From an uncultured Pelagibacteraceae bacterium (GTDB taxonomy: Bacteria; Pseudomonadota; Alphaproteobacteria; Pelagibacterales; Pelagibacteraceae): a stretch of 64,000 bases of DNA. Positions 23,334-45,845 of this stretch are shown here, piece after piece (position 1 is the stretch's first letter; each line of letters begins with the position of its first letter). Below the pieces are notes generated by a model that saw only the letters and a program-made list of their open reading frames with translations, searched no databases and was not told where the DNA came from. Position numbers and translations under genes: made by a program. The stretch covers positions 1 to 64,000 of the forward strand of contig CACKVD010000005.1 of assembly GCA_902603555.1 (NCBI GenBank), in the 5' to 3' direction.

Positions 23334-24506
23334 TTATTTGTTAGGAGTCAATAATATCAGAAAGTAACCGGCTAATGTTGATAATAATGACCCAGTTAAC
23401 ACACCAATTTTTACACCATCCATATATTGCATATTTTCAACAAATGCTAAATTTCCAACAAAAAGACTCATTGTAAAACCAATACCAGTAAGAATTCCAA
23501 CACCATAAAGATTAAACCAGTTAGTATTATTTGGCATTTGTGCAATTTTCATTTTTATTGATACATAAGAGAAAACAAAAACACCTAATTGTTTACCAAC
23601 GAATAATCCTAATAATATTCCTAATGGTACTTTATCTAACAACGATGAAAAGGATAAACCATCTAAAGACACTCCAGCATTAGCAAAAGCAAATAACGGC
23701 ATTATACAAAATGCAACGTAAGGACTTATTGCGTGCTCAACTTTAATTAATAATGAAAAATCTTTCTCTTTGTCTCTGTGAGGTATTGTCATTGCTAATA
23801 ACACACCAGCTATTGTTGCATGTATTCCTGAATTATGTGTAAAATCCCACAAAAATAGACCAACTATAAGATAAGGTAAGAATTTTTTAATATTAAACTT
23901 ATTGATAATTAATAAAATAATAAATGCGACAAGCATTAATATTAAATATTTTATACTTAAATCACCTGAATAAAATAAAGCTATAATTACTATTGCACCT
24001 AAGTCATCAATAATCGCAAGAGCGGTTAAAAATACTTTAAGTGATATAGGAACTCTTTTTCCCAAAAGAGATAAAACTCCTAAAGAAAATGCAATATCAG
24101 TAGCTGAAGGTATTGCCCATCCATTTAATGTTGTACTATCATCAAAATTTATGAATACATAAATTAGAGCAGGGACTAACATGCCGCCGACTGCAGCAAT
24201 TATTGGAAGTAAGGCCTGTTTTATATTTGATAATTCACCTTGTAAAAATTCTCTTTTAATTTCTAAAGTAACAAAGAAAAAGAAAATTGCCATTAAAGCA
24301 TCATTAATCCAATGAATTACTGATAATTTTAAACCAAAATCATTTATTCCTATAAATAAATAGTTATTTAAAGTTGAAAAGTAAAGTTCAGATAAATTTG
24401 AGTTACTAATGATTAAAGCTATTATAGCTGCAAATAGTAAAATTAATCCACTTGCAGCCTCAAGTTTAAAAAACCATTTAAAAGGTTTGGATAAGTAATT
24501 AATCAT
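23334..24506 (-). CDS. nhaA: Na+/H+ antiporter NhaA
   Basis: WAIPSATDIAFSLGVLSLLGKRVPISLKVFLTALAIIDDLGAI. Confidence 0.96.
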   Translation of the reverse strand: MINYLSKPFKWFFKLEAASGLILLFAAIIALIISNSNLSELYFSTLNNYLFIGINDFGLKLSVIHWINDALMAIFFFFVTLEIKREFLQGELSNIKQALLPIIAAVGGMLVPALIYVFINFDDSTTLNGWAIPSATDIAFSLGVLSLLGKRVPISLKVFLTALAIIDDLGAIVIIALFYSGDLSIKYLILMLVAFIILLIINKFNIKKFLPYLIVGLFLWDFTHNSGIHATIAGVLLAMTIPHRDKEKDFSLLIKVEHAISPYVAFCIMPLFAFANAGVSLDGLSFSSLLDKVPLGILLGLFVGKQLGVFVFSYVSIKMKIAQMPNNTNWFNLYGVGILTGIGFTMSLFVGNLAFVENMQYMDGVKIGVLTGSLLSTLAGYFLILLTPNK

Positions 24507-43854: not shown

Positions 43855-44313
43855 TTAATTTCTAACTATGTTTTTACTATTCATTTTTCCTAATTCAATA
43901 ACTTTTGGATTTTGTGCTGAATGAGGATGATCTCCTCCTGAATAGATTTTCAATTTAGTTAGTTGCTTTTTTCCCAAAACACCACCTGGTAACATTCTTT
44001 TAACTGCAAGCTTTAAAGCCTCACCAGGTTTTTTTTCTTGGAGTTTTTCAGGTGTAGTTTCTTTGATACCACCAGGGTGACCTGTGTGTTTATAATATTT
44101 TTTATTTTGAAATTTTTTTCCAGTAAACTTTATTTTTTCAATATTCTTAACTATAACAAAATCTCCATGATCCATATGTGGAGTATAAGTTGTTTTATTT
44201 TTGCCTCTTATTATTTTAGAGATTATAGTAGCCAGTCTGCCTACTACAGCATTATTTGCATCAATTTCGTACCACGATGAGGATAATTGATCTTTTTTAA
44301 TGAATTTTGTCAT
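43855..44313 (-). CDS. rplM: 50S ribosomal protein L13
   Basis: WYEIDANNAVVGRLATIISKIIRGKNK; VKRMLPGGVLGKKQL. Confidence 0.97.
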   Translation of the reverse strand: MTKFIKKDQLSSSWYEIDANNAVVGRLATIISKIIRGKNKTTYTPHMDHGDFVIVKNIEKIKFTGKKFQNKKYYKHTGHPGGIKETTPEKLQEKKPGEALKLAVKRMLPGGVLGKKQLTKLKIYSGGDHPHSAQNPKVIELGKMNSKNIVRN

Positions 44314-44397
44314 TGTGCGAGGATTAATACTATTAATAAATATAATGTCAAATTGATATTTCTATTGTTTTAATTACTTAATTTGATATATTTGTAA

Positions 44398-44441
44398 TTG
44401 CCGATTTGATCCTATTGCGGGCTTACAGCTAAACAGGAACT
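44398..44441 (+). promoter_or_regulatory. SAM-II riboswitch aptamer candidate
   Basis: TTGCCGATTTGATCCTATTGCGGGCTTACAGCTAAACAGGAACT matches remembered SAM-II conserved blocks (GATTT..CC.TATTGC, AGCTAAA.AGG); TCCT/AGGA pseudoknot pairing possible. Confidence 0.75.
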
Positions 44442-44455
44442 TTCACACTAAATCG

Positions 44456-44516
44456 GTAGGCATTTGAACTATATTGTGCGCCTTACATTAAGTAGAAGCA
44501 CTAAAAAAGGAGTAAT
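44456..44516 (+). promoter_or_regulatory. SAM-V riboswitch candidate covering the ribosome-binding site of metY
   Basis: GGCATTTGAACTATATTGTGCGCCTTACATTAAGTAGAAGCACTAAAAAAGGAGTAAT; AGGC/GCCT and GTGC/GCAC stems; SD AAGGAG lies inside the conserved 3' block. Confidence 0.82.
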
Positions 44517-45845
44517 ATGAGCAAGAAAAGAAACAATCCTGAAACCATAGCTATTCATGGTGGAGATTATAGAAGTGATCCAGCAACTAATGCTGTTGCT
44601 GTTCCAATTTATAGAACAACTTCTTATCAATTTAATAGTGTAGATCATGCGGCCAACCTTTTTGCATTAAAAGAGTTTGGCAATATCTATACAAGAATAA
44701 TGAACCCTACAAATGATGTGTTAGAAAAAAGAATTGCAGCTCTAGAGGGAGGCTTGGCTTGTTTAACTGTAGCATCTGGACAAACTGCATCATTATTTTC
44801 AGTATTAAATGTCGCTCAAGCTGGAGACAATATTGTAAGTTCAACAGATCTGTATGGTGGAACTGTATCTTTATTTACACACACATTGAGTAAACTTGGT
44901 ATTGAAATTAGATATGCTGATCCAAAAGATCCAAAAAATTTTGAAAAAAAAATTGATGATAAAACTAGAGCTTTTTATGGAGAAACATTACCCAACCCAT
45001 ATTTGAGAGTATTTCCAATTAAAGAAGTTTCAGATATTGGTCGTAAATACAATATACCTCTTATAATGGATAATACTGCAGCACCAGTTATATGTAAACC
45101 AATTGAACACGGTGCAGCCGTAGTAATTCATTCACTAACAAAATATATAGGAGGTCATGGTACTGCTATTGCTGGAAGTATTGTTGATAGTGGTAATTTT
45201 GATTGGACAGCAGATCCTAAAAGACAACCATTGTTTAATGAACCGGATGCTAGTTATAATGGTGCAGTTTGGGGTAAAGTTGTACCTGAACTTACAGGAG
45301 CAAATGTTCCTTTTGCTGTGAGAGCTAGAGTTTGTTTATTAAGAGACCTAGGTTCAGCATGCTCACCAGATAATGCGTTTGCTATTATTCAAGGTCTTGA
45401 AACTGTGGCTTTAAGAATGAGACAACATTGTGCCAATGCTGAATATGTTGTTGATTTTCTAAAAAAACATAAAGAAGTGACAAAAGTAATATATTCAACT
45501 GAACACGACAAACCTATTGCTGAAAGAGCAAAAAAATATCTAACCGGTGGAAATGGTCCTATGGTTGGTATTGAACTAAAAGGTGGTATTGAAGCTGGTA
45601 AAAGATTTATTGAATCCTTAAAAATGTTTTATCATGTAGCAAATATTGGTGATGCTAGAAGTTTAGCTATTCATCCAGCTAGCACTACTCATAGTCAATT
45701 AAACGAAAAAGAGTTGGCAGCTTCTGGTGTCACTCAAAGTTACGTTAGATTGTGTATCGGTTTAGAACATATTGATGATATAATAGATGATTTAGATCAG
45801 GCTCTAAATAAATCTTCAAAAGGGTCCTTAAAAGCAGTTAGTTGA
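44517..45845 (+). CDS. metY: O-acetylhomoserine sulfhydrylase (Cys/Met metabolism PLP enzyme)
   Basis: ETIAIHGGDYRSDPATNAVAVPIYRTTSYQF; IHSLTKYIGGHGTAIAG (PLP Lys). Confidence 0.94.
   Translation: MSKKRNNPETIAIHGGDYRSDPATNAVAVPIYRTTSYQFNSVDHAANLFALKEFGNIYTRIMNPTNDVLEKRIAALEGGLACLTVASGQTASLFSVLNVAQAGDNIVSSTDLYGGTVSLFTHTLSKLGIEIRYADPKDPKNFEKKIDDKTRAFYGETLPNPYLRVFPIKEVSDIGRKYNIPLIMDNTAAPVICKPIEHGAAVVIHSLTKYIGGHGTAIAGSIVDSGNFDWTADPKRQPLFNEPDASYNGAVWGKVVPELTGANVPFAVRARVCLLRDLGSACSPDNAFAIIQGLETVALRMRQHCANAEYVVDFLKKHKEVTKVIYSTEHDKPIAERAKKYLTGGNGPMVGIELKGGIEAGKRFIESLKMFYHVANIGDARSLAIHPASTTHSQLNEKELAASGVTQSYVRLCIGLEHIDDIIDDLDQALNKSSKGSLKAVS

Follow-up and report, generated by a model that had tools for sequence, protein, structure and literature searches.

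The metY leader

The window, the whole 64,000-nucleotide stretch of DNA analysed here from an uncultured Pelagibacteraceae bacterium, carries metY, the gene for O-acetylhomoserine aminocarboxypropyltransferase (O-acetylhomoserine sulfhydrylase). Its open reading frame scores 569.8 bits against TIGR01326, for which the cut-off is 495. The genes rplM and rpsI are divergent to metY, from position 44313. In the metY leader, a SAM-II-type element (44400–44438) lies directly 5′ of a SAM-V riboswitch (44449–44515). The features are as follows.

44365–44392, plus strand: predicted metY promoter; –35 TTGTTT (44365–44370), 16-nt spacer, extended –10 TG-A-TATATT (44387–44392)
44400–44438, plus strand: predicted short-P1 SAM-II-type pseudoknot aptamer; P1 GCC (44400–44402) with GGC (44420–44422), L1 GAUUUGA (44403–44409), P2a UCC (44410–44412) with GGA (44436–44438), P2 core UAUUGC (44413–44418) with GCUAAA (44428–44433)
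44400–44407, plus strand: 5′ strand of predicted helix P0, GCCGAUUU, overlapping the P1 5′ strand and L1 of the SAM-II-type element
44450–44457, plus strand: 3′ strand of P0 (anti-aptamer), AAAUCGGU, ending directly at SAM-V P1 (AGGC, 44458–44461)
44449–44515, plus strand: SAM-V riboswitch; P1 44458–44461/44480–44483, P2 44476–44479/44498–44501, P3 44484–44486/44492–44494
44507–44512, plus strand: metY Shine-Dalgarno sequence (SD) AAGGAG, inside the SAM-V 3′ end
44517–45845, plus strand: metY, the regulated gene

The covariance-model match identifies the downstream domain as a full member of the SAM-V class (Rfam RF01826, 77 bits against a gathering score of 41, E=6.8e-11), which was found in 254 of the 397 genomes of the family. 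The GGAG of the SD ends 4 nt 5′ of the metY ATG at 44517, within about 10 nt of the start codon. An initial annotation of this DNA had placed a SAM-V segment here, ending within 5 nt of the ATG with the SD embedded, and had proposed a covariance-model check; the Rfam match and the position of GGAG agree with it. It had also proposed a translational role for the downstream aptamer, which is supported by the SAM-V element ending in the metY SD. For metY of HTCC1062, whose own RNA rather than the window sequence was studied, SAM binding occludes the SD in SAM-V, and the isolated short SAM-V RNA binds SAM (PMC6061858).

Transcription of metY is predicted to start at about 44399–44400, the first base of the SAM-II P1. 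The upstream regions of relatives have the same arrangement, in which TTG.. and 16 nt are followed by an extended –10 (TGnTAaAAa) whose end lies 6 nt from P1. Among 45 dereplicated relatives, the –10 of the best promoter ends 5–7 nt ahead of P1 in 71%, compared with 10% in shuffles, and the predicted start base is a purine in both the GCC and the ACC forms of P1. A strict fixed-threshold promoter scan of the window gave no match at the metY promoter. On the minus strand, TTGACA at 44346–44351 is the probable –35 of the divergent rplM-rpsI operon. The GTCAA block conserved 5′ of the metY promoter is therefore probably the rplM –35 read on the opposite strand.

The upstream SAM-II-type element

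The SAM-II-type blocks of the window are GATTTGATCCTATTGC (44403–44418) and AGCTAAACAGGA (44427–44438). The two consecutive segments described by the initial annotation are both present where it had put them, including the P1 pairing GCC/GGC. Like SAM-II (RF00521, SAM_alpha), the upstream element has the layout of an H-type pseudoknot with a GAUUU L1, a UAUUGC/GCUAAA core and a P2a. It differs in its P1, which is 3 bp in the window type and 5 bp in sister-genus copies, in an L3 of mostly 5–8 nt, and in lying below Rfam detection. The short form is also predicted to start at +1 and has no terminator or RBS of its own.

The Rfam SAM-II model RF00521, with a cut-off of 36 bits, gave no match in 44300–44560, even at E<=5. 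The experimentally verified bhmT SAM-II of Pelagibacter HTCC1062 served as a control for this model. It was located in a relative (G026) treated as HTCC1062 because its SAM-V elements at 1005818, 732787 and 1127359 lie within HTCC1062 intergenic regions tabulated in PMC2704228. In that genome the published bhmT SAM-II scores 15.5 bits (E=0.34) and the metX SAM-II 26.7 bits. Since verified SAR11 SAM-II also falls below the cut-off, a missing RF00521 match does not discriminate in SAR11, and we set the model aside as an uninformative arbiter of the SAM-II half. Of the two Rfam checks proposed initially, that for SAM-V was positive and that for SAM-II negative, the latter with a model that misses verified SAR11 SAM-II. 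SAM-II is probably under-annotated in SAR11. The published SAR11 copies at G026:C1:218239-218313 and 1127457-1127532 (L137, L138) are below the RF00521 gathering threshold. A 14.8-bit SAM_alpha match elsewhere in the window (24441–24501) has no SAM-II core in its sequence and was rejected as chance.

We therefore built a covariance model of our own from 28 sequences of the short element, among them those of the window and of HTCC1062 metY and mmuM. It matches the window at 44396–44438 with 64.7 bits (E=5e-12; the window sequence is in the model), and the HTCC1062 metY and mmuM leaders, both also in the model, with 63.3 and 54.7 bits. With this model, at E<=0.001, 158 of the 399 genomes in the genus proved to have the short element. 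There are 208 distinct loci, 156 before metY, 51 before mmuM and one too near a contig end for assignment by BLAST, which reads like mmuM; HTCC1062 has the element in the leaders of both genes. The exact core pattern occurs in at least 119 places in genome_contigs, and among the matches listed all titles are Pelagibacteraceae or Pelagibacterales. A search for phage or viral copies did not find the exact core pattern in viral_contigs.

Sequence changes among these copies preserve the predicted structure. In 28 aligned variants, 97.8% of the cells in P1, P2 and P2a, the crossing helices of the pseudoknot, are paired; three pairs are changed on both sides, and the covariation score was reached in none of 500 shuffles. 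Compensatory changes fall in P1 and P2a. In an open search, P1 is 3 bp long and paired in all 117 distinct variants (GCC/GGC 115 times, ACC/GGU once, in HTCC1062 mmuM, and GCU/AGC once), whereas the usual SAM-II P1 has about 5 bp. The contact blocks GAUUU, AUUGC and GCUAAA are whole in the window and in 84 of 86 distinct variants. The contact bases of the bhmT SAM-II are U10, U11, A20, U21, U22, U46, A47 and A49 (PMC11508383), and by our position mapping all eight are identical in the short element. Thus the upstream SAM-II-type element of the initial annotation is borne out by the model score, by its occurrence across the genus and by structure-preserving changes. The same annotation had suggested that the short P1 may weaken the aptamer, which is not supported, P1 having 3 bp in 117 of 117 variants with compensatory changes. 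Because the contact bases are near-invariant and P1 and P2a change in a compensatory manner, the comparative data point to specialisation of the short-P1 element rather than decay. Sequence comparison gives good support for the identification of both aptamers in the metY leader, which belong to the SAM-II/SAM-V superfamily and share one short transcript.

Leader architectures and the predicted P0 helix

About 118 SAM-V leaders were read for architecture. Nearly all have a SAM-II-type element 5′, in two main arrangements. In the first, a canonical SAM-II with P1 GCGCC/GGCGC is followed by a terminator such as CCACCGCUUUAG..GGUGGUUUUUUUU and then by SAM-V; it is carried by sister genera and by a few copies in the genus itself, including HTCC1062 bhmT. 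In the second, carried by the genus itself before metY and mmuM, (G/A)CC-GAUUU..UAUUGC-n-GG(C/U)..GCUAAA..AGGA is followed about 20–27 nt later by SAM-V, without a terminator; L115 was classed as short-P1 from its sequence. Neither the window nor any short-P1 leader of the genus among those read was found to have an intrinsic terminator between the aptamers, and action of the upstream aptamer through transcription, which the initial annotation had thought possible, does not fit. The sister-genus metY leaders L050, L052 and L055 combine the short-P1 element with an intrinsic terminator before SAM-V and are possible evolutionary intermediates. These three have a weak P0-like strand 3′ of the terminator. 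Four mmuM leaders (L246, L254, L287 and L316) have kept the short SAM-II element and have lost SAM-V or have it in decayed form; in L254 and L287, which are without SAM-V, a P0-like complement is kept 5′ of the start codon. At G040:C1:454602-454645 (L341), a SAM-II-like element with a very short L3 precedes what is probably metX; after the element comes a small hairpin with a U-rich tail.

The published tandems are of the first kind. In the original set of 120, SAM-II ‘always precedes an intrinsic terminator’ (PMC9481103), and the SAM-II/SAM-V pairing has been described as rare and assigned to bhmT (PMC5069961). The initial annotation had stated that SAM-V is known from Pelagibacter metY leaders, where it can follow SAM-II. 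SAM-V is indeed known there, but the published tandem is that of bhmT, and for HTCC1062 metY and mmuM only SAM-V is given (PMC2704228 Table 1; PMC5069961). As far as it is described in later papers (PMC9481103, PMC11508383), the Pelagibacter ubique bhmT tandem of Poiata et al. 2009 resembles the window in having the same aptamer order before a methionine gene and a SAM-V that overlaps the SD. By the same accounts, the published tandems have a full-length SAM-II P1 and always a terminator, whereas the window has a 3-bp P1, no terminator and a P0 strand adjoining SAM-V; the published Pelagibacter tandem stands at bhmT, the short form at metY and mmuM. In the literature, with Poiata et al. 2009 represented by those later papers, we found no description of a short terminator-less form. 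The comparative evidence indicates that the short-P1 SAM-II-type element with SAM-V is a real, widespread and new variant of the SAM-II/SAM-V tandem.

In the linker between the two aptamers, the strand AAAUCGGU, which adjoins SAM-V P1, is complementary to GCCGAUUU in the upstream element. This pairing, P0, is in the RNAalifold consensus for 51 leaders and also in the minimum free energy (MFE) structure of the window. In these models P0 and the folded upstream aptamer are mutually exclusive. Over 152 distinct linkers, P0 lies 4–19 nt from SAM-II, whereas the duplex is flush with SAM-V P1 in 132 of them and within two more nucleotides in the rest, counting transcribed bases only. When energy and position were compared jointly with shuffled linkers, p was at most 0.06 in 23 of 23 dereplicated linkers (Fisher 1e-31, a descriptive value from which relatedness is not removed). 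The energy alone gives a modest signal against dinucleotide shuffles (mean z about –1, Fisher 2e-5). P0 is absent from the canonical terminator-type tandems. Clearly canonical leaders have P0 energies of about –1 to –5 kcal/mol compared with a median of –9.3 in the short form, a contrast understated by the summary of the canonical control set, which also contained several short-form leaders. In mmuM leaders the pairing partner of the same 5′ segment is another 3′ strand (AUCAAAUAAGCAA and AUCAAUCUGCA, among others), and in several of them P0 is weak (–4 to –6 kcal/mol).

In alignment A1 no pair of P0 is changed on both sides and none scores above shuffles. The aptamer keeps the 5′ strand invariant, which leaves no room for compensatory change in P0, and covariation by columns was dropped as evidence. 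The case for P0 as a helix is thus confined to complementarity and position. An extension of P0 upstream into SAM-V P1, seen in the MFE structure of 44390–44520, was also dropped, as it is not common to relatives and lies mostly 5′ of the predicted start. Nested folding gave an inconsistent effect of P0 on SAM-V P1; the SAM-V pseudoknot is beyond the reach of the method. The P0 pairing and the predicted start on P1 are additions to what the initial annotation contained.

Proposed coupling of the two aptamers

The best explanation of this leader, to which we assign an even chance of being correct, is an exchange of strands that is gated by SAM and linked to the translational switch of SAM-V. 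At low SAM, P0 would form, dismantling the upstream pocket and locking L1, which would supply the third strand of the SAM-binding triplex, in a duplex; SAM-V would be empty too, the SD free and metY made. With ample SAM, the upstream aptamer would capture its ligand co-transcriptionally, before the P0 3′ strand exists. P0 would then be prevented, and SAM-V P1, unstacked from P0, would fold, bind SAM and bury the SD. Without ligand, computed energies favour the P0 fold over P1 (median 6.4 kcal/mol, 23 leaders), a margin comparable to the energy of micromolar binding; SAM would therefore need to be bound ahead of transcription of the P0 3′ strand. The upstream element would in this way sharpen or gate the SAM-V switch by strand exchange at the junction, not by a terminator. 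There is a precedent in the bhmT tandem, where SAM-II is kept from responding to SAM by the linker (PMC11508383). The step from P0 to SAM-V is the least certain one; coupling is favoured because the position of P0 is fixed relative to SAM-V. The fuller proposal, that two SAM aptamers of different classes are physically coupled by strand exchange, with a miniature SAM-II at +1 licensing SAM-V in a cooperative, terminator-less switch, is put forward more tentatively. Such a leader would share with bi-mechanism or pseudo-cooperative tandem riboswitches (PMC9481103) the use of two aptamers for one ligand and one gene; it would differ in that one strand seems to take part in the state of the upstream aptamer as well as in the edge of the downstream one.

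A less probable alternative is that the upstream SAM-II acts at the mRNA level while SAM-V exerts independent translational control. Exchange between P0 and P1 at the 5′ end could alter access of RNase or RppH, or SAM could expose the AU-rich linker to RNase E and so cause decay. With the start predicted on P1, both P0 and P1 contain the first bases of the mRNA, and ligand-induced pseudoknots acting on mRNA stability have been discussed for SAM-II (PMC9373788). Under sulfur limitation of HTCC1062, metY mRNA rises 7.1-fold and its protein 2.2-fold, and mmuM mRNA 6.1-fold (PMC5069961), although both are described as translational switches. The rise in metY mRNA, together with the P0 complements that persist in the two mmuM leaders without SAM-V, keeps an mRNA-level output in play. 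However, the 5′ end is paired in both states, control of decay needs no tight anchoring of P0 to SAM-V P1, and translation alone can cause changes in mRNA.

It is rather unlikely that the two aptamers act independently in series, with P0 as a ligand-free fold that sets the threshold of the short SAM-II and repression that is pseudo-cooperative with no physical coupling. SAM-V does bind SAM as an isolated short RNA (PMC6061858), and because L254 and L287 have lost SAM-V yet keep the P0 complement, P0 may serve SAM-II itself, not SAM-V. But an aptamer without terminator or RBS needs an output, for which only P0 is visible, and P0 keeps a constant position with respect to SAM-V but not to SAM-II. 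More doubtful still is the reading of the upstream element as a remnant of a canonical SAM-II-terminator-SAM-V tandem, with its terminator lost and SAM no longer bound. In sister genera these genes do carry a canonical SAM-II and a terminator, and L050, L052 and L055 resemble intermediates; yet intact contact bases, a P1 paired in every variant and compensatory changes in P2a point to strong continuing selection on the element while the neighbouring linker drifts. Chance resemblance of the upstream blocks, with no RNA element, had in its favour the missing Rfam SAM-II match, but Rfam also misses verified SAR11 SAM-II and the comparative data refute this reading.

Pelagibacter are the most common bacteria of the ocean, and the SAM-V of HTCC1062 metY, whose crystal structure is known, serves as a reference riboswitch. 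The window domain corresponds to it in its 4-bp P1, its P2 and P3, and its SD. The crystallized RNA (6FZ0, PMC6061858), a 53-nt construct, begins at P1 and therefore omits the P0 strand and the upstream element, both of which are present in the metY leader of the HTCC1062 genome itself (L041). These sequences indicate that the native HTCC1062 leader holds a second, unannotated SAM-II-type aptamer together with a strand able to dismantle it. If the upstream element binds SAM, the published SAM-V affinities would account for just one half of the switch, the control of metY and mmuM by SAM in SAR11 would have to be reinterpreted, and the puzzle of the bhmT tandem, in which a linker silences SAM-II, would gain a simpler counterpart. 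For annotation, the Rfam SAM-II model misses SAM-II in SAR11. In an HTCC1062-like genome, a SAM-V without SAM-II lies 5′ of an OsmC-looking gene (L030, about 2710), in agreement with PMC5069961.
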